A stretch of DNA of 64,000 nucleotides. Origin: Hymenobacter daecheongensis DSM 21074. GTDB lineage: Bacteria; Bacteroidota; Bacteroidia; Cytophagales; Hymenobacteraceae. Under the pieces are notes generated by a model. It had not been told where the DNA came from, ran no database searches, and saw only the letters and a list, made by a program, of their open reading frames with translations. The stretch spans positions 62,001-126,000 of the forward strand of contig NZ_FQYN01000009.1 in the NCBI RefSeq assembly GCF_900141805.1, read 5' to 3'. The position numbers and the translations under genes are program-made. Positions 1 to 57,804 of this stretch are shown here, one piece after another (within the stretch, counting starts at the first letter, position 1; every line of letters starts with the position of its first letter).

Positions 1-333
1 GTGGCCTTCGTGCAGAAAACCACCGAGTATGGCACCAACAGCCCCGCCTTCGTGCCCCCGTTCGTCGATTTCGATGAGCTGAAGCAGGACGTGGCCGGCC
101 TCACGGCCCTCACGCCGCTGCATCAGCAGCTGGAGCAGCTCGCCCTCGACACCGACTCGACCATGATGATGGCCGGCTCGGAGGCCTACGGCAACTCGCT
201 GACCATCTACAACAACATCAAGTTTATGGCCCACAACAAGCAGCCCGGCGCCCAGACCGCCTACGACGACCTGCGCCAGCGCTTCCCCGGCAGCCCCAAC
301 GCCGGCCGCAAGCCCACCCCCGCCAAGAGCTAG
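1..333 (+). CDS. Unknown protein, 3' part only
   Basis: The frame is open from the first base of the window, so the gene very probably begins upstream and the GTG at position 1 need not be the start. The visible 110 residues are hydrophilic, with no membrane segment, no signal peptide in the visible part and no catalytic motif I recognise. The segment around residues 15-75 is probably helical and the last 15 residues are a Pro/Lys/Arg-rich tail. The gene ends just before a strong hairpin at 351-397. I do not recognise the family and assign no function. Confidence 0.7.
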   Translation: MAFVQKTTEYGTNSPAFVPPFVDFDELKQDVAGLTALTPLHQQLEQLALDTDSTMMMAGSEAYGNSLTIYNNIKFMAHNKQPGAQTAYDDLRQRFPGSPNAGRKPTPAKS

Positions 334-397: not shown

Positions 398-770
398 GGT
401 GGGAAGGAGGGCCGGTAAAGGTCGAAATCGGGGGTCGGACCCCCAATTTCGGGGGGCGGGCCCCGGAAATCGGGCTGCGGTGGCCCGATTTTGAGCTAAA
501 GTGGCCCGAAATCGGGGGTCGGACCCTCGAAATCGGGCCAACTTGGGTCGAAATCGGGGGTCGGACCCCGGAAATCGGGCCAACTTGGCTCGATTTCGAG
601 GGTCGGCGGGCCGAAATCGGGGGTCGGAGGCGCGATTTCGGGCCACTTTGGGTCGATTTCGAGGGTTGGACCCTGGAAATCGGGGGTCCGACCCCGGAAA
701 TCGAGGGTCGGACCCCGGAAATCGGGGGTCCGACCCTCGATTTCCGGGGTCGGACCCCCGATTTCGGGCC
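361..770. repeat. 21-bp phased palindromic repeat array, about 19 copies
   Basis: The heptamer GAAATCG, or its mirror GATTTCG, or a one-base variant, starts at 361, 382, then 424, 445, 466, 487, 508, 529, 550, 571, 592, 613, 634, 655, 676, 697, 718, 739 and 760. The step is exactly 21 bases every time; only position 403 is degenerate. The 14 bases between heptamers vary but are often the palindrome GGGGTCSGACCCC or contain CCAACTTGG. Because 21 is a multiple of three, several frames stay open as heptapeptide repeats; I do not take these as genes. The array fills the space between the convergent ends of the partial gene and the STAS-like gene. Confidence 0.9.
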
Positions 771-1233: not shown

Positions 1234-3996
1234 TTAGCGGCCGGCCGGGGCCTTGCGCCCGGCCTTGGGGGGCGGGGGCAGCAGGGGGGCCTGGAGCTGG
1301 CGGTAGTGCTCAAACAGAAATTCGAGGCGGCTTAGTTCGGTGGGAAAGGCGGCCGAGCGGTAGCACAGGTCCACGGCCCGATCGAGCTGCTGGTGGGCCT
1401 TCACCAGCACGGGGGGCATGGTGAGCGGGTCGTAGAGGGTGGCCAGGCTCTCCTGGGGGAACTGCGCCCGCGCCGCCAGCACCTGCTGCGCCGCCGCTTC
1501 CACGGCCGCGGTTTGCTTCGGGGTGGGGGTTGGGGGGAAGGGGAAGTTGTTGTAGACGAGTGTGCCCGAGTAGCGGAAGTCGCTCTTGAGACGGCCACAG
1601 ATTTGCCGCATCCAAGCCATGTGCATTTGCGAAGTGAATACACCGAACAAGTATGGGGTTGCGTTCGGGATTGTTCGGCACAAGTCGGTGGCGATAATTT
1701 CCTTCGACATGAACCCCACCGGAATGTACTTCCGGTTCTCTGACGTGACTCCCGGTATCAGGAGATAATCACTGTCTGGCTGGCGGTCTTCTGTAAACAA
1801 CTGCGGGAAGTTGGCCCATTTGCGTGTTGATTCTTTGGTGCTTGCCAGCCTCATTTCTTTCACTCGTTGAATTCTTTCCCGCACAAGTGGCATAGACTTC
1901 AACTCAGAAGGGCCGGCCCCTTTCAACCACAAGCACCATCTTGGCTCATTGTAAAGAAATTCACGCGCTCCAAGCAAAGGCTTAATGAAAGCTGCTGCCT
2001 GCGGCTCCTTTGCGACTAATTCCTCCTTCTCCGCGTCTGACATCAGCAGGTTGCCTCCGTCCGTCGGTTGGCTGCCCTTTATCATTGGCGGCACTTGGCT
2101 GAGAGGTTTGCTTCTGTCAGTCACCCAAGCATCATCAGTATCTATTAAGTAGGCATTAATACGACGAACAGGTCGCCCTTGGGCCTCTGATTTGGGCGTA
2201 GCGTAATCGTATAGCATGGCTTGCTTTGGCGCATCTAACCCAAACCCTACTATCACGCAGTAAACAGCCGCGTTATTCTTTGCTTCATTCCCCCACTTAA
2301 AGGTCCGATGAGCAAAATGTATCTGGACCCCATAACGCCTCACCAATTCTCCCCACAGAACAGGCACATGTTCGCCTTGTGTAATCGAGTTTGTTGAGAC
2401 GAACGCAACTTTAATAGCAGTGCCCTGAATGTATTGGGCCGCTTTTAGGAACCACGCAGAAACGTAATCCAATATGCCTGCGGACTTCATGTTTCCAGCC
2501 ACAGCCGCAAGTTCGGCTCGTTGCTCTTTGGTCTGCCAGGATTGCCCGATGAACGGCGGATTGCCCAAAATGTAGCTGAGCTGGTCTTTGGGGGCCACGG
2601 TTTCCCAGTCGGTGGTCAGGGCGTTGCCGTGCACGATGCGGGCGGTGCGGGTGAGGGGCAGGCGCAGGTAGAGGTTGCCGAAGGCTTCGGAGAGGCGCAG
2701 GTTGAGCTGGTGGTCCATCAGCCACATGGCCACCTCGGCAATGCGGGCCGGGAATTCTTCCACCTCAATGCCGTAGGCCTGGTCTACCTGCACGCGGGCA
2801 TACAGGGCCAGGTCGATGGTTTGGCCGGTGGCGCGGCGGTCGGCGAAGAGGCGCTCCAGGATTTCCTGCTCCAGCAGGCGCAGCTCGCGGTACGTGACCA
2901 CCAGGAAGTTGCCGCAGCCGCAGGAGGGGTCCAGGAAGCGCAGCTTCTCCAGGCGCAGGTGCAGGGCATTGAGGCGGGGCCGGTTCTGGCCGGCCTGGGC
3001 CAGCTCCTGGCGCAGCTCATCCAAAAACAGCCCCTGAATGACTTTGAGGATATTGGCCTCGGAGGTGTAATGGGCCCCCAGGTTGCGCCGCTTCACGGGG
3101 TCCGTCACGCTCTGAAACAAGGACCCGAAAATGGCGGGCGAAATGCGCGACCAGTCGAAGTAGGTGCAGCGAATGAGCTGCTCGCGCAGGGCGGCATCGA
3201 AGGCCGGGAAGGGGAAAAACTCCGTGAACAGGGAGCCATTCACGTAGGGCAATTGCTGGAGGTAGTCGGGCAATTGGCGCTGGCGGGTGGCGGGGGCCTG
3301 GTCGAGCACCTCAAACCACTGGGCCAGGCGGGTGCCCACGTCGGAGCCGTCGGGGCGGGTGTGCTCTTCCAGGAAAGCCCGGAAGGCATCTTTCTCGAAG
3401 ATGGCGGTATCCTCGGCAAACAGGCAGAACAGGATGCGCACGAGCAGCACTTCGAGCTTGTGGCCGTGGTAGCCGCCGCGCAGCAGGGCATCGTGCAGCT
3501 CGCCCATCAGCTCGGCGGCCCTGATGTTGGCGGGGTCTTCGGGCTGGTACTGGCGCTTCTGGTAGCCGGTGAGGAAGGAGAACAGGTGCAGGTGCTGGTG
3601 CAGCTCCGAGAGCCCGAAATCGTGCTGGGTGCCCTCGTCGAGGTCGTAGAGGCGGAAGCGGGCGAAGTCGGAGACGAGGATGTACTTGGGCAGCTCGTGG
3701 TCTTGCAGGCCGGGGAAGTAGTCTTTGGCCTGCTGGCCGGCTTTGTCGAGGTCTTTGCCGCGGCTTTTGTGCTCCACCAGCAGGGTGCCCTTCCAGAGCA
3801 GATCAATAAAGCCCTGCTGGCCGGAGAGCTTCTTCACGGGCTCCTCGAAGGTGGCCACGCGGCGGCGGTTCACGCCGAACACGTTGAAAAACTCGCCCCA
3901 GAAGGCTTTGGCTTCGGCATGCTCGCGGGTTTCGTGCTGCCACTCCTGGGCAAAGCGGATGGCGCGGTCTTTTACTTCGGATAGGGATAGGGGCAT
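1234..3996 (-). CDS. Type IIL (MmeI-like) restriction-modification enzyme
   Basis: About 920 residues, almost the length of MmeI (919). The start is the ATG at 3996; the open frame upstream of it is low-complexity. The N-terminus has a PD-(D/E)xK nuclease with D65, then nine residues, then E75-H-K77, the same spacing as in MmeI. A helical spacer follows. The N6-adenine methyltransferase has motif I FLDPSCGCGNFLV near residue 354 and motif IV NPPF near 478. Target recognition and C-terminal helical regions follow. Enzymes of this family cut and methylate with one protein and one recognition domain, so no partner gene is needed and none is present. DNA coding for residues about 480-810 (roughly 2545 down to 1570) is clearly poorer in GC than the rest, which suggests the recognition region was exchanged. 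Confidence 0.88.
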   Translation of the reverse strand: MPLSLSEVKDRAIRFAQEWQHETREHAEAKAFWGEFFNVFGVNRRRVATFEEPVKKLSGQQGFIDLLWKGTLLVEHKSRGKDLDKAGQQAKDYFPGLQDHELPKYILVSDFARFRLYDLDEGTQHDFGLSELHQHLHLFSFLTGYQKRQYQPEDPANIRAAELMGELHDALLRGGYHGHKLEVLLVRILFCLFAEDTAIFEKDAFRAFLEEHTRPDGSDVGTRLAQWFEVLDQAPATRQRQLPDYLQQLPYVNGSLFTEFFPFPAFDAALREQLIRCTYFDWSRISPAIFGSLFQSVTDPVKRRNLGAHYTSEANILKVIQGLFLDELRQELAQAGQNRPRLNALHLRLEKLRFLDPSCGCGNFLVVTYRELRLLEQEILERLFADRRATGQTIDLALYARVQVDQAYGIEVEEFPARIAEVAMWLMDHQLNLRLSEAFGNLYLRLPLTRTARIVHGNALTTDWETVAPKDQLSYILGNPPFIGQSWQTKEQRAELAAVAGNMKSAGILDYVSAWFLKAAQYIQGTAIKVAFVSTNSITQGEHVPVLWGELVRRYGVQIHFAHRTFKWGNEAKNNAAVYCVIVGFGLDAPKQAMLYDYATPKSEAQGRPVRRINAYLIDTDDAWVTDRSKPLSQVPPMIKGSQPTDGGNLLMSDAEKEELVAKEPQAAAFIKPLLGAREFLYNEPRWCLWLKGAGPSELKSMPLVRERIQRVKEMRLASTKESTRKWANFPQLFTEDRQPDSDYLLIPGVTSENRKYIPVGFMSKEIIATDLCRTIPNATPYLFGVFTSQMHMAWMRQICGRLKSDFRYSGTLVYNNFPFPPTPTPKQTAAVEAAAQQVLAARAQFPQESLATLYDPLTMPPVLVKAHQQLDRAVDLCYRSAAFPTELSRLEFLFEHYRQLQAPLLPPPPKAGRKAPAGR

Positions 3997-12497: not shown

Positions 12498-12504
12498 CGG
12501 CACG

Positions 12505-12639
12505 GTGAAATAGTGAAATGGTGAGATAGTGAGATGGTGAGTTTGATGTTCTGACTGCGCCACTTGCGCCAACTGCGCAAACCGAACATCAAACTCACCA
12601 TCTCACTATCTCACCATTTCACTATTTCACCACTTCACC
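12505..12639. repeat. Octamer-built inverted repeat element (copy 1)
   Basis: The left arm 12505-12551 is five octamers of the form GTGARATR (GTGAAATA, GTGAAATG, GTGAGATA, GTGAGATG, GTGAGTTT) followed by GATGTTC. The right arm 12584-12639 is its reverse complement, with one extra octamer. The 32-base loop carries TGCGCCACTTGCGCC-like sequence that recurs in other copies (18222-18232, 45216-45232). It sits between the divergent cytochrome c and glycosyltransferase genes. Confidence 0.9.
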
Positions 12640-15872: not shown

Positions 15873-18176
15873 ATGCTGCGTCGTTGTCTTTTCTTATTCG
15901 TATTCGGGCTGAGCCTGCCGTGGGCAGCACCCTTCAAAGCAGAGGCTCAGTCGGGCAATCTGTTTGGCTTTGAGCACCGCAATGTGGCAAAAGTAGTGCA
16001 AGCCACCGATACGCTGCGCAATGCCTGGGCGGGCGGCCTGAATTCGGCCCAGCTTTCCAGCCTCGACCTGAACGGCGACAATCTGCCCGACCTCTACATC
16101 TTCGACCGCCTTTCGCGCCGCTCGCTCACCTACCTGAATGCGCCGGCTCCCGGTGGGGGCCGCCAGTGGCAGTACGCGCCCGACTACGAAGCCCTGTTTC
16201 CCGACGGCCTGCAAAACTGGGTGCTGCTGCGCGACTACGACTGCGACAACCGCCCCGACCTGTTCACGGCCAGCCTCGTGCCGGGCAACATTCGGGTATT
16301 TCGGAACGTGGCCGGCCCGGGCGGGCGGCCTTCGTTTCAGCTGGCCCAGGCCAACCTGTTTTTCTTCGACCCCAACCCGCCGGCCGGCGACGTGAACATC
16401 ACCACCGGCGGCTACAACATGCCCGACATCCGGGACGTGAACGGCGACGGCCGGCTCGATATTCTGTGCCACGACTACAGCGGCTCGTTCGATATCCGGC
16501 TGTTTCAGAACACCAGCACCGCGTGCGGCGGACTCACGTTTCGGCAAACCGATGACCGCTGGGGCGGCACGCGCACCTGCTTTTCGTCGTGCACGTCGTT
16601 TGTGTTTGGCACCGCCCAGTGCCGCTCGCCGCTGCAGATCAACCACACGTCGGGCAACAATATGCTCACGCTCGACCTCGACGGCGACGGCGACCTGGAC
16701 CTGCTCACCGGCCGCGACTACTGCACCGAGCTGACCAAAATCATCAACCAGGGCACCAACGCGGCCCCGCGCATGACCAGCGCGGGCCTCGACTCCAACT
16801 TTCCGGCCAACACCACCCCGGCCCACTTGGCCAATTTCCCGTCCCCGTATTCCCTGGATGTTACCTTCGACGGCTACCCCGACTTGGTGGTGACCCCGAA
16901 CGTGTTCGACAACCTCGACACCATCGACACCCGCCGCTCGGTGCTACTTTATGAGAATGTGAGCCCCACCAATATTCCCATTTTCGTGTACCGGGGCAAC
17001 GACTTTTTGCAGCGCGACATGCTCGACGTGAGCGACAAAGCCGCGCCCACCTTCGGCGACCTCGACGGCGACGGCCGGAAGGATATGCTGCTCGGGGGCG
17101 TGAGCCGCAACACGCCCAACGGCTTCTACCGGGCCTCGCTGGCGTTTTACCGCAACGTGGGCACGGCCACCAAGCCCGTGTTTAAGTTCCAGGATGCCAA
17201 CTACCTCGGCCTGGCCGGCCCCGGCCGCTTCTATGCCTCGCTGCGCCCCGCGCTGGTCGATCTGAACCGCGACGGGGCCCTGGACCTGGCTTTTTCCGGC
17301 TATTCGGCGGGCAGCTCCTACAATTTTGTGGCCTACGTGCTTAATACCGCTGCTGCCAACCAGCCCGCCGCCTTCAACCTGGCCAGCATTGCCTACATTG
17401 ACGGCATTCCGAGCCGGCCGCTCGATACGGCCGCCTTTGCCGATATCGACGGCGACGGCAACGTGGATCTGCTGATCGGAACGGATACCAATACGCTGTC
17501 CAGCGGCTCGCTGCGCTACTATCGCAACAACGGCACGCAGCCCCTGAGCCAGGCTTTCGTATTGGCTGACAACGATTTCGGGCGCATTCGCAATGGCTCC
17601 AACCAGCGCCCGTTTGCTCTCTCGCCCACCGTGGCCGATTTCGACGGCGACGGCACTCTGGATCTGCTCACTATTGATGCAACGGGCACGCTACGGCTGT
17701 TTGCAGACCTGCGCGCCCAGAGCGGTATCTTCTCCGACCGCAGCGACCTGCTCCACAACAGCGTACTCAATCAGTATGAAGCTACGGAGCTGGGCAACAA
17801 GCTCAGCAACAGCTTCGTGCTGGCCGCCGCCGATGTGAATGCCGATGGGGTGCCGGAAGTATTCGTGGGCACGGAAACCGGCGGAGTGGTGGCCTTCGGG
17901 GCCCGCAACAACCGGCTGCTGAGCACGCGCCGCGCTGCCGCACCAGCGCTGGCCCTGAGCATCTACCCCAACCCGGCCACCAGCACCGCCACCATCGAAA
18001 CGCCCCAGCCCGCCCGCCTCACGCTGCTCGACCTCACCGGCCGCTGCCTGCGCACCGAGGCCGCGCTGGCCCGCACGCACACTCTAAGCCTGCAGGGCCT
18101 GGCTGCCGGCATCTACCTCGTCCGCGCCGAAACCGCCACCGGCCAATCCGGCATCCAGCGGCTTATAGTGAGATAG
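15873..18176 (+). CDS. Secreted FG-GAP/VCBS repeat protein with T9SS sorting domain
   Basis: 767 residues from the ATG at 15873. A GTG at 15852 would add VKKRVPP and is a real alternative, since it gives a longer basic n-region. The signal peptide ends FKAEAQ. Eight calcium-type repeats of the form DxDGDGxxDLL are visible (DLNGDNLPDL, DVNGDGRLDI, DLDGDGDLDL, DLDGDGRKDM, DLNRDGALDL, DIDGDGNVDL, DFDGDGTLDL, DVNADGVPEV), consistent with a seven-bladed integrin-like propeller. The C-terminus (IYPNPATSTATIETP ... GIYLVRAET) is a type A sorting domain. The last codons and stop (GTG AGA TAG) are supplied by octamer repeat DNA. The ligand is unknown. Confidence 0.9.
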   Translation: MLRRCLFLFVFGLSLPWAAPFKAEAQSGNLFGFEHRNVAKVVQATDTLRNAWAGGLNSAQLSSLDLNGDNLPDLYIFDRLSRRSLTYLNAPAPGGGRQWQYAPDYEALFPDGLQNWVLLRDYDCDNRPDLFTASLVPGNIRVFRNVAGPGGRPSFQLAQANLFFFDPNPPAGDVNITTGGYNMPDIRDVNGDGRLDILCHDYSGSFDIRLFQNTSTACGGLTFRQTDDRWGGTRTCFSSCTSFVFGTAQCRSPLQINHTSGNNMLTLDLDGDGDLDLLTGRDYCTELTKIINQGTNAAPRMTSAGLDSNFPANTTPAHLANFPSPYSLDVTFDGYPDLVVTPNVFDNLDTIDTRRSVLLYENVSPTNIPIFVYRGNDFLQRDMLDVSDKAAPTFGDLDGDGRKDMLLGGVSRNTPNGFYRASLAFYRNVGTATKPVFKFQDANYLGLAGPGRFYASLRPALVDLNRDGALDLAFSGYSAGSSYNFVAYVLNTAAANQPAAFNLASIAYIDGIPSRPLDTAAFADIDGDGNVDLLIGTDTNTLSSGSLRYYRNNGTQPLSQAFVLADNDFGRIRNGSNQRPFALSPTVADFDGDGTLDLLTIDATGTLRLFADLRAQSGIFSDRSDLLHNSVLNQYEATELGNKLSNSFVLAAADVNADGVPEVFVGTETGGVVAFGARNNRLLSTRRAAAPALALSIYPNPATSTATIETPQPARLTLLDLTGRCLRTEAALARTHTLSLQGLAAGIYLVRAETATGQSGIQRLIVR

Positions 18177-18280
18177 TGAGATGGTGACTTAGCGACTTAG
18201 TGACTTTGATGTTCGGCTTGCGCCATTTGCGCAGTTTAAACAGAAAACTCACTAAGTCGCTAAGTCACCATTTCACCAGT
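18164..18280. repeat. Octamer-built inverted repeat element (copy 2)
   Basis: The left arm carries GTGAGATA, GTGAGATG, then a variant series GTGACTTA, GCGACTTA, GTGACTTT before GATGTTC. The right arm ends ACTCACTAAGTCGCTAAG then TCACCATTTCACC. The arms cover the 3' ends of two convergent genes: the left arm contains the FG-GAP stop and the right arm contains the last codons (GTG AAA TGG TGA) of the omega-amidase gene. The loop carries TTGCGCCATTTGCGCAG, shared with copies 1 and 4. Confidence 0.85.
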
Positions 18281-20308: not shown

Positions 20309-20345
20309 ATGGTGAGATAGTGAAATAGTGAGATGGTGAGTTTTT
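20309..20345. repeat. Half octamer element (copy 3, left arm only)
   Basis: GTGAGATA, GTGAAATA, GTGAGATG and GTGAGTTT run directly into the next repeat family. No right arm is present. It lies just upstream of the aminotransferase start codon. Confidence 0.75.
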
Positions 20346-34305: not shown

Positions 34306-34398
34306 GGTAAGGGTATGGTTAGGGGTGAATAGTTGGGGGAAGATAGGCTAATTCAGAGGTGGTTGCACACGGCCGGGGCGGTATTTCTGCGGGCAGCC

Positions 34399-34621
34399 GT
34401 GACATGGCATCCGCGGCGGGTGACATGGCTCCTGACGAGGGTGACATGCCACTCAACGACCGTGACATGGCTCTTGAAAAGCGTGACATGGCACTGAAAA
34501 AGCGTGACATGCCTCCGGCGCGGGGTGACATGGCACTCAACGAGCGTGACATGCCACTGGCAGGTGGTGACATGGCATTGGCGCGGGGTGACATGCCAGT
34601 GGGTGGGGGTGGCATGTCTGT
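34399..34621. repeat. 21-bp phased TGACATG repeat array, 11 copies
   Basis: GACATG starts at 34401, 34422, 34443, 34464, 34485, 34506, 34527, 34548, 34569 and 34590, with GGCATG at 34611: exactly 21 bases each time. The core is TGACATGSCW, close to the palindrome TGnCATGnCA. The other 11 bases vary; only CTCAACGA is reused (repeats 3 and 7). Both strands stay open as heptapeptide repeats (DMALxxR on plus, MSRxxSA on minus), an expected result of a 21-base period and not evidence for a gene. The array lies between the helical-protein gene and the end of the ATPase/TOPRIM-like module. Confidence 0.92.
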
Positions 34622-34766
34622 TGTGCGGTGGTGCGGGGTTGTATTTCGTGCCTTGCTTAAGGTGAGGCTACAGCTCACATAGTAGAATGACTGGCGCTAA
34701 GCCGGTACAAGGACATCGTCATAGTAGACACAAACTGCAAGTTCGCCCCAGATGGGAAAGCATCAG

Positions 34767-35426
34767 CTAAAGGTTATGAAATTGATCTTCGGCTTCAGTG
34801 AGGAAGTTGTTTAAACTATAGCTAGCCTGAGAACATAGAGCTAAGGTTTTGGCCTTTTTGAGTGGTTTAGCGAGTTCATTATACTTCGCTGGCTCTCTTC
34901 TACCTTGAAGCTTTTGATAAGTTGAAGTTCTCTGAAGTGTAGATTTAGGATTGCTTACTAAATCTGGATTACTATTGGATGAGTGAATAGGTAGTATCCA
35001 TGCCTCTGTCTCTTCTATGGCAATTGCATACGCTATTCTAAAGGTATGTGGACCAATCCACATATTTATTCTATTGTATATTGCTGTTCTGAGCTCTTGG
35101 CAATAATCGGTATTGCCTGCCTTAGTAGGTTTTGAACCATTGTAACCTGCCTCAAAAGCACGGTCTGTATCAATATGAATGACAAAAAAATCACTGTCAG
35201 GTAAGTTGTTAAAAAAATTTTCAATGATTTTTCTGCTTCTGCACTCCTCTTTTACAATAGTCCAGTTGCTGAATGTGTTAATTCCTTGACTAAATTTATC
35301 TGTTTCGTCTTTTACATCGTCAGGCCTAAATGCTCTTATTTCACTTGAGTCAATACCCAAGTGTGATGCTAGTAGATGTTTGATGATTATGACATCAGTA
35401 ATGCCTTCAGCAATTAATCCAATCAT
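34767..35426 (-). CDS. TOPRIM-like putative nuclease of a two-gene defence-like module
   Basis: 219 residues. The N-terminus MIGLIAEGITDVIIIKHLL has the strand-Glu-Gly-x-(T/S)-(D/E) turn of TOPRIM domains (Glu7). The DxD motif is VIHIDTD (Asp86, Asp88). AIEETEAWILPI (Glu138, Glu139, Glu141) is like the acidic motif in DUF4276/OLD-type TOPRIM proteins. Coding GC is far below the window average. It follows the AAA ATPase by 12 bases on the same strand, so they form an operon. ATPase plus separate TOPRIM proteins are known in anti-phage systems such as PARIS (AriA/AriB) and split OLD-like pairs. I cannot say it belongs to either; the TOPRIM call rests on motifs only. Confidence 0.68.
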   Translation of the reverse strand: MIGLIAEGITDVIIIKHLLASHLGIDSSEIRAFRPDDVKDETDKFSQGINTFSNWTIVKEECRSRKIIENFFNNLPDSDFFVIHIDTDRAFEAGYNGSKPTKAGNTDYCQELRTAIYNRINMWIGPHTFRIAYAIAIEETEAWILPIHSSNSNPDLVSNPKSTLQRTSTYQKLQGRREPAKYNELAKPLKKAKTLALCSQASYSLNNFLTEAEDQFHNL

Positions 35427-35438
35427 AAATATTTTATG

Positions 35439-36677
35439 TTAAAAATCTTCATTTATAGCTCCGATATAACCTCTGAGCCACATTTCTGAAAGCTTTAGGC
35501 TTTCAATGTTTTCTCCCTTGGTTTTTATTCTTCTTGTTTTTGTGTGGCCTTCATCGTTTCTATATACCTCAAATAACCTTGTGCTGTCGTCATTGAGATT
35601 GACGCCATCGAGGATTGCCGGATTATGTGTGGTTATTAACACTTGTTTGTTGTTTGATTTAGCCAAGCTTGTTATTTCCTTGACTAAACTTCTGCAAACA
35701 CTTGGATTTAAGGCGCTTTCTATGTTGTCTATAGCAAAAAAGGACGGAGTGGACTTGCTGATAAATAGTGCTAGGTAAAAGAGTATGTGTAAAGCACCTT
35801 CATTTGAATTCTCTGCTGAGAATATGTTATTATTTCTTCTCATGTGCTTGTCTTTGAAGTATAATCTAGAGTTGCTTCTGCCAAGTTTGTAACCTAGATA
35901 TTTTAAATTATCGTCTGCTGATATAATTATCTCATCGAGCCAAGGTATCAGGCTAGTGTATTCTAGCATTGTTTCTCTTTCTTCGTTAGTTAAATTTGCA
36001 ATTAGAATGTCTAGTCCTTCTCCGTATATTCCTAATGGTTGTTTGCGGCTTTCGACAGATACGCCTCTCAATGCTTCTGTATTTGCAGTGTAAATGGAGA
36101 AATTTTTTAAACTTATATAAATATCATCTGGAATAAATAAGTACTTCATTATTTTGTTTATAAAAGAATTTCTTGAGTCTTGTTTTGTGTCTCTGCTTAT
36201 TTCAATGCTATTTAATTTTTCCAATAATTCTTTAAATGAATCATTGGTAATAGAATCGTATTTTGAATGCATTAAATCATTTCTTTTCTTTCTTTCAATA
36301 TCTCTTTTATTTTGTGAATAATCAATATTTTTTTCTGTCCATTCAGAATATATGCTAGTACCTGTAGATATTAAAACAGTGTCATCTTCTAATATTTCTT
36401 CTCCTTGTTGATAAGTAAATTTTACTGTGAATTCGTTTTTTGGTTTCTTATACATAAATGAGCTGAATGTAAGCGAGGGCATAGCAACTCGAATGCCTTT
36501 GCTTGTTAAGCCATCTGGATTTAGATCTTGGCTTTTTGCAGCGCTTAGCATCGCAACAGCTTCTAATATGTTGCTTTTCCCGCTTCCATTTGCGCCAATA
36601 AATATATTGACTCTACCCAAATCAATTTTTTCTGAATAAATTGATTTGAAGTTCTCTATTGTTAAAGACTGTAGCAT
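35439..36677 (-). CDS. OLD/ABC-type AAA ATPase of a two-gene defence-like module
   Basis: About 412 residues from the ATG at 36677 (an ATG at 36695 is also possible). It begins MLQSLTIENFKSI, as many OLD/RecF-like ATPases do. Walker A is GANGSGKSN at about 28-36. A charged central region of about 200 residues (EKNIDYSQNKRDIERKKRND) probably forms the coiled coil. The signature-like NEGALHILFYLAL precedes Walker B FFAIDNIESALNP near residue 314, followed by the histidine switch LITTHNPAI. No nuclease domain is fused; the TOPRIM-like protein follows. The gene is AT-rich (roughly one-third GC by eye) against GC-rich neighbours and was probably acquired by transfer. Confidence 0.88.
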   Translation of the reverse strand: MLQSLTIENFKSIYSEKIDLGRVNIFIGANGSGKSNILEAVAMLSAAKSQDLNPDGLTSKGIRVAMPSLTFSSFMYKKPKNEFTVKFTYQQGEEILEDDTVLISTGTSIYSEWTEKNIDYSQNKRDIERKKRNDLMHSKYDSITNDSFKELLEKLNSIEISRDTKQDSRNSFINKIMKYLFIPDDIYISLKNFSIYTANTEALRGVSVESRKQPLGIYGEGLDILIANLTNEERETMLEYTSLIPWLDEIIISADDNLKYLGYKLGRSNSRLYFKDKHMRRNNNIFSAENSNEGALHILFYLALFISKSTPSFFAIDNIESALNPSVCRSLVKEITSLAKSNNKQVLITTHNPAILDGVNLNDDSTRLFEVYRNDEGHTKTRRIKTKGENIESLKLSEMWLRGYIGAINEDF

Positions 36678-36718: not shown

Positions 36719-39700
36719 TTACGCCCCCACCTTCTCCTCACTCCCCAGCTCCGCCAGAATCCGCTTGGCGGCCTGCACGGACTTCACCTCGTCGATGCTG
36801 ACGATGAGCTGTTCCTTGCGCTCCTTCATGGAGGCGGTGCGGCTGTGGGTCTGCACGTAGTTGAGGATGTTGCCGAACTGCTCGCCTTGGAAGAAGTCGG
36901 CGTTGTCGAGGGCGGGGATGTAGCCTTTGAGCAGGTTTTTCTTGAGGGTGAGCTTCTCGAAGCCGGCCTGGCAGGCCTGCCAGCGCAGCTTCACGATGTC
37001 GGCGAGCTGCTCGACCTCGGCGGGCAGGGGGCCGAAGCGGTCCACCATGCCGGCAATGAGCTTGCGCAATTCCTCGGGGTTTTTGGCGCGGTCCAGCTTG
37101 CTGTAGAGCTGCAGGCGCTCCGACACGCTGCTCACGTAGGCGTCGGGAATCAGGATCTGCAGGTCGGTTTCGATGTTGCACTCCTTGGGGCCCTTGGTGC
37201 CCACGGCGCTCTGGAGGCGGCCGGTCGTGTCGCCGAGGAACAGCTCCTTGAACTCGGTTTCCTTCAGCTCGGTCACGGCCTCGTCGAGAATCTGGTGGTA
37301 GGTTTCGTAGCCCAGGTCGTTGATGAAGCCCGACTGCTCGCCGCCGAGCAGGTTGCCGGCCCCGCGGATGTCGAGGTCGCGCATGGCCACGTTGAAGCCC
37401 GCGCCCAGGTCCGAAAACTCTTCCAGGGTGCTCAGGCGCTTGCGGGCGTCGCTCGGGAGGCCGGCCACGGGCGGGGTGAGCAGGTAGCAGTAGGCCTTCT
37501 TGTTGGAGCGGCCCACGCGGCCCCGCATCTGGTGCAGGTCGCTCAGGCCGTGCAGGTGGGCGCGGTTGATGATGATGGTGTTGGCGTTCGGGATGTCGAG
37601 GCCCGACTCGATGAGGTTGGTGCTCACCAGCACGTCGTACTCGCCGTCCACGAACTTCATCATGCGCTTTTCGAGCTGGTCGCCCTCCATCTGCCCGTGA
37701 ATGTAGGTGATGCGGGCGTCGGGCACGAGGCGCAGGATCATGGCCGCCATTTCCTCGATGTCCTTGACGCGGTTGTGCACGAAGAACACCTGCCCCCCGC
37801 GCTTCAGCTCCCGGGCCACGGCATCGCGGATCAGGATTTCGTCGAATACGTGCAGCTCGGTCTGCACCGGCTGGCGGTTGGGCGGGGGCGTGGCAATGAC
37901 GGACAAATCCCGCGCCCCCATGAGCGAGAAGTGCAGGGTGCGCGGAATCGGCGTGGCCGAGAGGGTCAGCGTGTCCACGTTCACCTTCAGCTCCTTGAGC
38001 TTGTCCTTGGTCTTGACCCCGAACTTCTGTTCTTCGTCGATGATGAGCAGCCCCAGATCCTTGAACTTGATGTCCTTGTTGGTGAGCCGGTGGGTGCCGA
38101 TGAGGATGTCGGTTTTGCCCTCGGCCACCCGGCCCAGCGTTTCCTTAATCTGCTTGGTGGTCTTGAAGCGGTTCACGTACTCGACCGTCACGGGCAGATT
38201 GCTCAACCGCTCGCGGAAGGTTTTGTAGTGCTGCATGGCCAGGATGGTGGTGGGCACCAGGATGGCGGCCTGCTTGCCGTCGGCCACGGCCTTGAAGGCG
38301 GCGCGGATGGCAATTTCGGTTTTGCCGAAGCCCACGTCCCCGCAGATCAGGCGGTCCATGGGGTGGGGCACCTCCATGTCGCGCTTCACGTCCTCGGTGG
38401 CCTTGGCCTGGTCGGGAGTGTCCTCGTAGATGAACGAGGATTCCAGCTCGGCCTGCATGAATGAGTCGGGGGCGAAGGCGTGGCCGGGGGCGGTTTTGCG
38501 CTTGGCGTAGAGCCGGATCAGCTCGGCGGCAATGTCCTTGACCTTTTTCTTAACCGACCTCTTCTTGTTTTCCCACTCCGGGGAGCCCAGCTTGCTCATG
38601 GTCGGCGGCGTGCCCTCGGCCCCGCTGTACTTGGCAATCTTGTGCAGGGCGTGGATGCTTACGGTCAGAATATCGTCGTCGCGGTACACCAGGCGGATGG
38701 CTTCCTGCATATGCCCGTTGATTTCGACCTGGGTGAGGCCGGCGAAGCGGGCAATGCCGTAGTCCTGGTGGGTCACGTAGTCGCCGGGGCTGAGCGTGCG
38801 CAGCTCCTTGAGGGTGAGAGCCTTTTTCTTGGAGAACTTCTTCGCTTCCTGTGCGCGATAGAACCGCTCGAACAGCTGGTGGTCGGTATAGACTACGAGC
38901 TTCATCAAATCGTCCACGTAGCCCTCGCGCAGGGCCAGGAGCATATGCTGGAAGGGCACGTTGTTGTCCAGCTCGTCGAAGATGGTGCGCAGCCGGTCAG
39001 CCTGCCGCACCGAGTCGGCGGCAATGATGCTGACGTAGTTTTTGCTGGCGTTGTCGTGCAGGTTCTTCACCATGCGGTTGAAGTCCTTATTAAAGGAGGG
39101 CTGGGGCCTGGCCTCGAAGCTGAACTCCTCGGCCCCGGTCTTGAAGTGAAACCGCTTGCCGAACTCCACCACCGGGAAGTTCTCAAGCAGCTTCCGGAAC
39201 GACTTGCCCGTTTCGAACAGCTGCTCGGGCTTGCTCACAATCTGCATCCCGGCGGCTCCCGCCAGCAACTCCTGGAATCCCGCGTCGGCCTTCTCAAACG
39301 ACTCGGTCACAATGTCAATCGTCTGGCGCACGTCCTTCACCCACACCGCCGTGTGCCGGGGCAGAAAGTCCAGAAACGCCTCCCGGGTTTCCTGGAGCAG
39401 CTTAGTCTGCACGTTGGGGATGATGCTGACCTGCTGCTTCTGCTCCACCGAAAGCTGGCTCTCGGGGTTGAAGGTGCGGATAGTTTCGACCTCGTCGCCG
39501 AACAGCTCGATGCGGTAGGGCAGCTCGTTGGCGTAGGAGAAGATGTCGACGATGCCCCCGCGCACGGCAAACTGCCCGGCCTCGTACACGAAGTCGGTGC
39601 GCTCGAAGTCGTACTCGGCCAGCATGTCGCTGATGAAGTTCACGTCGAGCTTCTCGCCCACCTTTACTAAGAAGGTGTTTGCTACTAGGCTCTTGCGGTT

Positions 39701-40252
39701 GATGACCTTCTCGAATAGGGCTTCGGGGTAGGTGACAATGAGGGCGCCGGAACCCCTCCCCAACCCCTCCCCAAAAGGGAGGGGCTTTTCAACGTCCTTC
39801 CCAGATATTTTGTCGGCTGGCTCCCCTCCCTTTCGGGGAGGGGTTGGGGGAGGGGTCCGCGTGTTCAGCCGATTCAGCACCTCGGCCCGCATGAGCACGT
39901 TAGCGTTTTCCGTCTCGTCGAAGTGGTAGGGGCGCTTGTAGGAGCTGGGGAAGAGCAACGGATCCTGCTCGGGCAGCAGGTGCTGGAGGTCGGCCAGGAA
40001 GTAGGCGGCCTCGTCCTTGTCGTGCAGCACGAACAGGTGGTGCTGCTCCGGGAACAGGCCGTGCATAGCGGCGGCCACCACGGCATCCTGGCTGCCCACC
40101 AGGCCGCGCAGGTGCAGGCGGGGCAGGTGCTCATCCGGTTTAGCTTCGCCGGCGGGGCGCAGGGAGTGGCGCGTGGCCGGGTTCAGGCGGGCCCCCACGG
40201 TCAATACGGTCGGGTCGAGGCGGTAGAGCTGGAGGAAGTCGGTGACCTTCAA
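36719..40252 (-). CDS. mfd: Transcription-repair coupling factor Mfd with an in-frame palindromic insertion
   Basis: 1177 residues. It starts at TTG (40252); there is no ATG before the upstream stop, and MKVTDFLQLYR is a plausible N-terminus. Mfd displaces RNA polymerase stalled at lesions and recruits UvrA. The N-terminal UvrB-like module is followed by the polymerase-binding domain (GDYVTHQDYGIARF near 492). The helicase has Walker A GDVGFGKTEI near 639, DEEQ near 740 and MRGRVGRS. The TRCF domain ends the protein. Residues about 132-167 are Pro/Gly/Lys-rich and are encoded by a C/G-rich inverted repeat (39751-39859) that reads through in frame. They interrupt the conserved run between LMRAEVLNRLN and ALIVTYPEALFEK. 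Confidence 0.96.
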   Translation of the reverse strand: MKVTDFLQLYRLDPTVLTVGARLNPATRHSLRPAGEAKPDEHLPRLHLRGLVGSQDAVVAAAMHGLFPEQHHLFVLHDKDEAAYFLADLQHLLPEQDPLLFPSSYKRPYHFDETENANVLMRAEVLNRLNTRTPPPTPPRKGGEPADKISGKDVEKPLPFGEGLGRGSGALIVTYPEALFEKVINRKSLVANTFLVKVGEKLDVNFISDMLAEYDFERTDFVYEAGQFAVRGGIVDIFSYANELPYRIELFGDEVETIRTFNPESQLSVEQKQQVSIIPNVQTKLLQETREAFLDFLPRHTAVWVKDVRQTIDIVTESFEKADAGFQELLAGAAGMQIVSKPEQLFETGKSFRKLLENFPVVEFGKRFHFKTGAEEFSFEARPQPSFNKDFNRMVKNLHDNASKNYVSIIAADSVRQADRLRTIFDELDNNVPFQHMLLALREGYVDDLMKLVVYTDHQLFERFYRAQEAKKFSKKKALTLKELRTLSPGDYVTHQDYGIARFAGLTQVEINGHMQEAIRLVYRDDDILTVSIHALHKIAKYSGAEGTPPTMSKLGSPEWENKKRSVKKKVKDIAAELIRLYAKRKTAPGHAFAPDSFMQAELESSFIYEDTPDQAKATEDVKRDMEVPHPMDRLICGDVGFGKTEIAIRAAFKAVADGKQAAILVPTTILAMQHYKTFRERLSNLPVTVEYVNRFKTTKQIKETLGRVAEGKTDILIGTHRLTNKDIKFKDLGLLIIDEEQKFGVKTKDKLKELKVNVDTLTLSATPIPRTLHFSLMGARDLSVIATPPPNRQPVQTELHVFDEILIRDAVARELKRGGQVFFVHNRVKDIEEMAAMILRLVPDARITYIHGQMEGDQLEKRMMKFVDGEYDVLVSTNLIESGLDIPNANTIIINRAHLHGLSDLHQMRGRVGRSNKKAYCYLLTPPVAGLPSDARKRLSTLEEFSDLGAGFNVAMRDLDIRGAGNLLGGEQSGFINDLGYETYHQILDEAVTELKETEFKELFLGDTTGRLQSAVGTKGPKECNIETDLQILIPDAYVSSVSERLQLYSKLDRAKNPEELRKLIAGMVDRFGPLPAEVEQLADIVKLRWQACQAGFEKLTLKKNLLKGYIPALDNADFFQGEQFGNILNYVQTHSRTASMKERKEQLIVSIDEVKSVQAAKRILAELGSEEKVGA
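39751..39859. repeat. C/G-rich inverted repeat inserted in mfd
   Basis: The left arm carries AACCCCTCCCCAACCCCTCC and CCAAAAGGGAGGGGC; the right arm is its inverse (GGCTCCCCTCCCTTTCGGGG, AGGGGTTGGGGGAGGGGTC). About 35 bases lie between the arms. Total size is close to 110 bases, divisible by three in effect, since the mfd frame is kept. The element at 4066-4292 has the same kind of arms. Confidence 0.88.
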
Positions 40253-45177: not shown

Positions 45178-45281
45178 AGTGAGATGGTGAAATGGTGAGT
45201 TTGATGTTCAAGCTGCACCAACTGCGCCACTGACGCCATCAGAACATCAAACTCACTATCTCACCATTTCACCATCTCACC
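45178..45281. repeat. Octamer-built inverted repeat element (copy 4)
   Basis: Left arm 45178-45208: GTGAGATG, GTGAAATG, GTGAGTTT, then GATGTTC. Right arm 45241-45281 is its reverse complement with two more octamers. The loop carries CTGCACCAACTGCGCCACTG, like copies 1 and 2. It fills the gap between yajQ and the TerC gene, with the GTG start of the latter nine bases beyond it. Confidence 0.9.
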
Positions 45282-45289
45282 TTTTCCCT

Positions 45290-57678: not shown

Positions 57679-57688
57679 GTGCTGGGAT

Positions 57689-57804
57689 TAGTTGTCAGTT
57701 GTTCGTTGCTAGTTGTCAGTTGTTCGTTGTTAGTTACTCGTTATCAGTTGTTAGTCAGTTACTTATTCGTGGTCTGACAACGAACAACTCACAACTCACA
57801 ACTG
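57689..57804. repeat. GTTGTCAGTTGTTCGTTG inverted repeat element
   Basis: Three or so imperfect copies of AGTTGTCAGTTGTTCGTTG at 57689-57760 are mirrored by GACAACGAACAACTCACAACTCACAACT at 57775-57802. It lies between the permease start and the adaptor stop within the efflux operon, so the transcript must read through it. It may set the ratio of adaptor to permease. Confidence 0.8.

Follow-up and report, generated by a model that had tools for sequence, protein, structure and literature searches.

The window analysed here is a 64,000-nucleotide stretch of Hymenobacter daecheongensis DSM 21074 (NCBI RefSeq assembly GCF_900141805.1, contig NZ_FQYN01000009.1, positions 62,001 to 126,000 of the forward strand). 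It contains two tandem arrays with a period of 21 bases, and its coordinates are used below unless another contig (C), genome (G) or locus (L) is named. The features discussed are the following.

1..333, + strand: 3′ part of the family-C gene (160 aa), whose start lies about 150 bp left of the window
428..768: first array, palindromic, period 21, 94 bp past the family-C stop codon
33607..34305, − strand: family-A gene P0001, 232 aa, all-helical model
34306..34398, − strand: gap of 93 bp between array and start codon (range 46–153 bp in the 29 array-bearing family-A loci)
34399..34620, + strand: 21-bp array of ten GTGACATGSC... units and one degenerate unit; self-similarity reaches 34648
34767..35426, − strand: slot gene 2, DUF4276-like (below the Pfam cut-off), PADLOC candidate PDC-M31B (E 4.5e-13)
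35439..36677, − strand: slot gene 1, AAA ATPase, PADLOC candidate PDC-M31A (E 1.7e-83)
36719..40252, − strand: mfd, transcription-repair coupling factor (TIGR00580), the fixed gene beside the slot

The array at 34399 is strictly periodic. TGACATGSC occurs in ten exact copies in the whole window, all of them on the + strand within 34400–34597 and at a constant step of 21 bases, while none of 100 dinucleotide shuffles held ten or more (shuffle mean 1.14); the strict spacing claimed in an earlier note on this DNA is thereby confirmed. That note counted eleven motifs, of which ten are exact and the eleventh, at 34611, is the degenerate GGCATGTC. The lag-21 self-similarity score is 86.6 over 34399–34648. 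Twenty-one bases equal two turns of the double helix. The array starts 93 bp 5′ of the start codon of the family-A gene (34305), and a TATnTTC-like element could be seen by eye in many of the 29 family-A gaps between array and start.

Searches of the protein P0001 against Pfam and PADLOC gave no family, and nothing in NCBIfam passed its cut-off. Its AlphaFold model is all-helical (pLDDT 80, pTM 0.46), and a fold search with it gave no solved structure at E ≤ 0.001. Family members are basic, with pI 8.0–9.8 and a median of 9.4. Relatives occur in 41 of 120 congeneric genomes, and a 21-bp array lies upstream in 29 of the 30 genus loci fetched, this genome's included (the exception is L184), at 46–153 bp from start codons that were partly extrapolated. 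Lag-21 identity in these 29 arrays is 0.55–0.77, and the next-best lag never exceeds 0.43. The earlier note proposed examining relatives for conservation of phase, and the 21-bp period is indeed kept at 29/30 loci. The letters are not: mean array similarity across 28 loci is 0.55 at a normalised protein score of at least 0.75 and 0.38–0.41 below it (0.38 in the lowest protein-score bin), so that A-array unit sequences are unrelated once normalised protein similarity drops below about 0.75.

The family extends beyond the genus. A profile search across the phylum (296 genomes) located family A in 11 of them; with the known loci of G000 and G041 omitted, 23 loci are left. Twenty-two of these are from nine genomes of other taxonomic families, and 13 of the 22 have an upstream lag-21 array (score at least 28, with L232 and L251 near this cut-off), while three more reach a score of 28 solely at lags 42 or 63. 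For scale, 900-bp flanks of EamA transporter genes without an array score below 17 at every lag shown. Downstream of the 22 loci and the paralog locus, lag 21 at 28 or more was never among the top two lags. The 23rd locus is a second A paralog in this genome (C14:107735, E 5.6e-11), adjoining array C14:107409-107647, which differs by eye from the window array. We found no homologs of A among 50,697 phage or 72,556 plasmid records, and searches of the same plasmid records with the second A paralog, B and C likewise gave nothing. As a separate observation, one window protein has its nearest records on Spirosoma and Fibrella plasmids.

The site behind mfd allows genomes with and without gene A to be compared. 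There, at 2–15 kb from mfd, lie 25 family-A orthologs (at least 61% identity) and two further members at 44–45%. In the stretches compared (5–18 kb; ten kb for those lacking A), an array is present in 26 of 27 with A (missing in G084) and in 0 of 20 without it, the latter being a non-random sample of 79 such genomes, drawn, with omissions, from those ranking higher by mfd identity. Two stretches carry C behind mfd, one with an array (G001) and one without (G017), and the G086 stretch, with neither A nor C, has none. The tie to the 232-residue gene that the earlier note drew from adjacency thus holds in relatives, and array presence at the mfd site is explained by gene A.

Two other gene families have arrays of the same period. 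Family B is represented by the gene beside C14:1509-1837 (206 aa), with relatives in 19/120 genomes; lag-21 arrays lie upstream in 21 of 30 loci, and some of the nine array-less loci are gene fragments. Family C, at the left edge of the window, has relatives in 44/120 genomes, with lag-21 arrays downstream in 17 of 30 loci and several more at lags 42/63; none was found upstream in 29 evaluable loci (L415 is short of upstream sequence). As a control, genes for EamA transporters have arrays in 0/30 loci upstream and in 1/29 evaluable loci downstream, namely at the C13 orphan of this genome. No homology between A, B and C was detected (hhalign probability 0.3–0.5%, from shallow alignments). The B model has a helical part and a C-terminal FN3 domain (best match E 5.9e-6), median pI is neutral in B (6.7) and acidic in C (5.7), and 16 B and 19 C members had no Pfam match. 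A Type IIG MmeI-like restriction-methyltransferase lies at 1234-3996, near the family-C gene and array.

Symmetry differs by family. Tested by column permutation, 14 of 21 B arrays are palindromic at p<0.05 (one more at 0.05) and 16 of 17 C arrays, as against 0 of 42 A arrays (one at 0.05), which rules out the palindrome as a common design that includes family A. Further arrays of this genome are palindromic in 4/4 cases (two GACATG orphans and one family-C home array), and those of G042 and G041 in 4/13. The palindrome-like core noted earlier in the window array is weakly present (p 0.08) and not conserved in its family; the orphans with the same motif on C13 and C14 give p 0.03 and 0.005. 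The design that the earlier note saw as common to both window arrays therefore stands for the 21-bp period and not for the short palindrome, which is typical of B and C arrays and not of A.

Within units, the columns diverge unevenly in 52 of 66 arrays, a pattern that fits binding sites built around a core and not the simple neutral decay of a tandem repeat. Of 604 successive core spacings no longer than 64, 519 are exactly 21 and 556 are multiples of 21, counts biased toward 21 by the choice of arrays and cores at that lag; 10/604 are 20 or 22 and none is 18 or 24. The near-absence of spacings of 18, 20, 22 and 24 says that units drift in sequence but not in phase.

The strict period, the conserved core with a freer spacer, and the family-specific side and symmetry together support the reading as a protein-binding DNA element. 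Our best explanation, to which we give about an even chance, is that the array is a helically phased multi-site element of the adjacent accessory gene, including the proposed binding by protein A of its own array. The array would be a cis-acting row of sequence-specific binding sites two helical turns apart, on which one protein, or several copies of it, may occupy one face of the DNA across 200–350 bp; array and accessory gene would form a gene-plus-array module, and the 21-bp constraint would be helical phasing for the bound protein.

The earlier note also took two arrays in 64 kb as a sign of a general structure in this genome. We scanned 464 kb (the window, C13:1-200000 and C14:1-200000) at lags 10–63 with a score cut-off of 30, and retained arrays outside ORFs of more than 250 aa. 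Nine lag-21 segments were found, comprising one in a 368-aa ORF, one part of a heptamer run and seven retained arrays:

428-768, window
34399-34648, window
17903-18196, C13
1509-1837, C14
30415-30609, C14
107409-107647, C14
116635-116918, C14

At lags 42 and 63 there were eight segments apiece, for the most part the arrays already found at lag 21, and a single segment came up at each of the lags 12, 16, 20, 24, 32, 40 and 48; only multiples of 21 and an 8-bp series scored above 36. In two congeners, 380 kb sampled from G042 held nine lag-21 segments (seven retained) and 400 kb from G041 held eight (six retained), the discards being two segments inside long ORFs and two 7-bp runs; other lags, chiefly 7 and 8, are present there too. 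The proposed autocorrelation scan, in the 464 kb covered, thus bears the claim out. Neither of the two conditions under which that note would have given up its claim, a lack of other 21-base arrays or of conserved phase in relatives, was found to hold. Array density over the samples of the three genomes is 15–18 per Mb, an overestimate in that stretches with known arrays were selected on C13 and C14 and in G041. The 8-bp series is of the GTGANATG type (window 12504-12541, 12594-12639, 20312-20340, 45179-45198 and 45252-45286; C14:22204-22294), and its first two members look like an inverted pair.

Some motifs recur away from their home genes. Elsewhere in the genome, GTGACATGSC makes up one more array on C13 and another on C14. 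A loose three-unit pattern matches in 6 of 120 genus genomes, with the array proper, among the match rows, in this genome and G041. Neither the B-home nor the A2-home motif forms an orphan array in the genome; apart from the home arrays they give four single-unit matches with one mismatch each. The first-array motif forms one more array, C18:47587-48058 (L341, L346), 37 bp 5′ of a response-regulator gene that belongs to none of the families A, B and C.

In another reading the arrays are selfish or neutral tandem repeats that spread and slip and are tolerated behind genes, with no role for the neighbour. Among the 20 arrays of the three samples, four precede a gene of family A or B (one at 453 bp); of the other 16, 13, including the family-C home array, have a gene 3′ end within about 107 bp by crude ORF calling, which would suit late insertion in harmless places. 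The C13 orphan sits 3′ of an EamA transporter gene and is missing there in all 28 relatives with usable sequence (locus L389 ends 82 bp 3′ of the gene), and the C18 array contains a segmental duplication by whole units. Such spreading does not account for the gene-specific linkage on a fixed side, for the conserved core, or for one period shared by unrelated arrays throughout the phylum. Nor do the flanks of 21 arrays show a consistent target-site duplication. Two repeats reached p<0.05: an 11-bp direct repeat at the C13 array (p 0.013), which is about chance level among 21 arrays, and one at G042:363503 (p 0.020), which falls inside the array itself. We regard this reading as unlikely, if the strongest of the alternatives.

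In type III toxin–antitoxin systems the toxin is neutralised by a tandem-repeat RNA encoded 5′ of its gene, and the arrays might likewise be transcribed and act as RNA. Their position directly 5′ of a small gene (A 29/30, B 21/30) is similar, the A slot adjoins candidate defence genes, and B arrays fold well, with median z −4.1/−3.7 against dinucleotide shuffles and 19 of 21 below −2 on a strand. The B arrays fold because they are palindromic, however, and the A arrays do not: over 29 loci (first 168 bases, 25 shuffles) median z is 0.39 and 0.30, with 3/29 below −2 on a strand. C arrays are behind their gene, exact two-turn spacing has no RNA rationale, and lag-21 identity of A arrays is modest for an RNA repeat. 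No ToxN/CptN/TenpN-like endoribonuclease was recognised in the searches of P0001 described above or in B, which ends in FN3, and neither model has a type III toxin fold, as that fold is generally known. An RNA role is accordingly improbable.

The array might instead be a boundary or attachment element of a hotspot for defence cargo, promoting cargo exchange. The pair 34767-36677 matches the candidate defence system PDC-M31, and the slot behind mfd is low in GC. Between mfd and the array no DNA homology of at least 150 bp was found in 11 pairs among 10 genomes, and the unpaired G108 and G049 slots are alike in gene sizes. Slot GC is 0.30–0.40 in nine genomes and 0.57 in G039. Cargo differs between the genomes compared, with PADLOC candidates in several (G000, PDC-M31; G039, HEC-01; G091, NsnB; G007, AriA; G075, PDC-M48B; G048, AbiU; G049, weak) and none in the slots of G016, G108 and G068. 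In 9 of the 11 pairs homology breaks at or near the outer array end and returns only in mfd; in the two pairs with G000 it is already lost before the array.

Against a boundary role, 12 of the 20 genomes that lack both A and the array also have low GC (0.40 or less) in the first kilobase past mfd, so foreign-looking cargo does not explain the array. Partial second mfd 3′ ends, mostly a few kb behind mfd, occur in 9 of 30 stretches that contain A, contain C or were chosen for such a copy (G001, G003, G041, G049, G050, G060, G086, G088 and G102); none of the 20 A-negative stretches has one. Such copies are of the kind left by insertion into the 3′ end of a gene. They suggest repeated integration of small islands at mfd in the genus, and point to mfd itself as a probable integration site. 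In this genome, moreover, the arrays of A2 and B are found on another contig. We consider cargo exchange by the array quite improbable.

A period of 21 bases is also seven codons. In this genome one frame per strand is open through all three GACATG arrays, but the corresponding frame has TGA stops in the G041 array. All six frames are stopped in arrays L187 and L202, all three gene-strand frames also in L182, L183 and L201, all three opposite-strand frames also in L177, L185 and L194, and no strand is open in all loci. With these stops, and without a spacing of 18 or 24, an array coding for part of a heptad-repeat protein is very improbable. The arrays are non-coding and generally not RNA structures.

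Returning to the phased binding element, its most likely mechanism, and its weakest step, would be that the basic, helical A protein cooperatively binds its own upstream array, and so regulates the promoter of its gene or serves as anchor for a nucleoprotein filament. Binder and array would then change in step, and the C13 and C14 copies would be secondary sites of the A protein. This is the simplest mechanism and would fit the charge of A; B and C invite no such reading. Several observations count against the explanation as a whole. The same-motif orphans show a weak palindrome that A-home arrays do not. A GACATG array is present in G041, but the A gene of that genome (30% identity; the only one found there) has another motif, which ill suits orphans as A sites. 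The B-home and A2-home motifs have no orphans, the A model has no solved relative, and A, B and C show no homology in shallow alignments. Arrays are missing at 9/30 B loci and, at lag 21, at 13/30 C loci. With an FN3 domain and neutral pI in B and an acidic pI in C, these two are unlike DNA-binding proteins, so a shared mechanism may need a separate binder. Since C arrays are downstream, promoter control cannot be the general role. Presumably either each family uses a similar array differently or a common factor binds them all.

Tandem sites at about 11 or 21–22 bp with the binder gene adjacent are found in iterons (R6K/pSC101), parC of ParM-ParR and stbS of R388. The present arrays are like these in being helically phased tandem sites beside a gene, in family A that of a candidate binder, but they are chromosomal, belong to several unrelated families and turn over in sequence, and A, B and C have no homologs in the plasmid records searched. 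No initiator or partition gene was recognised by eye among the nearest ORFs of the 20 arrays and the mfd slots, and no DNA-binding domain was recognised in A, B or C.

In REP/RAYT systems the repeats are specific to each gene lineage. The likeness is in a gene with its own repeats plus dispersed copies; the differences are strict 21-bp arrays in place of single hairpins, and only two orphans of the window motif. REP/REPIN sequences are reported to flank their RAYT gene, with dispersed intergenic copies (PMC3116915, PMC2817692, PMC3686654). A, B and C were not recognised as Y1 (HUH) transposases, P0001 and the B and C members searched having no Pfam match. A Y1-like ORF near the C13 orphan scores 19.8 bits, below the 23-bit cut-off.

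Arrays of the heptamer TAACTGA are described as intergenic, with many near start codons, in Beggiatoaceae, Cyanobacteria and Bacteroidetes (MacGregor 2015, PMC4679880). They have one fixed 7-base unit, in contrast to a period of 21 with many units and linkage to gene families. The window has TTAGTTG/TCAGTTG heptamer arrays at 57688-57803 that resemble those repeats. At the ptx promoter, BvgA is reported to have multiple upstream sites about two helical turns apart (PMC7250471); that is a single promoter of a known regulator and not a recurring gene-array module. A literature search for repeats of this kind in the phylum and genus, and for sites phased at 21 bp, found no paper whose title concerns such arrays; its coverage was incomplete, which makes this weak evidence of absence.

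That the spacing persists although nearly all the letters are replaced points to a DNA platform of a type not described so far. More tentatively, and with rather less than an even chance in our estimate, these would be phylum-wide gene-array modules in which selection keeps only the 21-bp phase and the symmetry type. The sequence would be re-invented with the adjacent small protein, giving a self-addressed nucleoprotein scaffold (or one with a common binder) in at least three unrelated accessory families. Tandem sites are usually recognised by their sequence; here geometry outlasts sequence within one genus, so sequence searches miss the class, and it was autocorrelation that found the arrays. 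They give a handle on three protein families without known function, make co-evolution of array and protein directly testable, and provide a natural collection of phased arrays for studying the evolution of specificity and phase.

Repeats at this spacing were also met outside the phylum. A one-pattern scan of named genomes gave, among the matches listed and with coding and non-coding unsorted, mixed repeats in many phyla; they include GACATGNC motifs at 21-bp spacing in Sinomonas, Diplocloster and Hormoscilla (for example L062, L064, L085 and L099), at several loci per genome.
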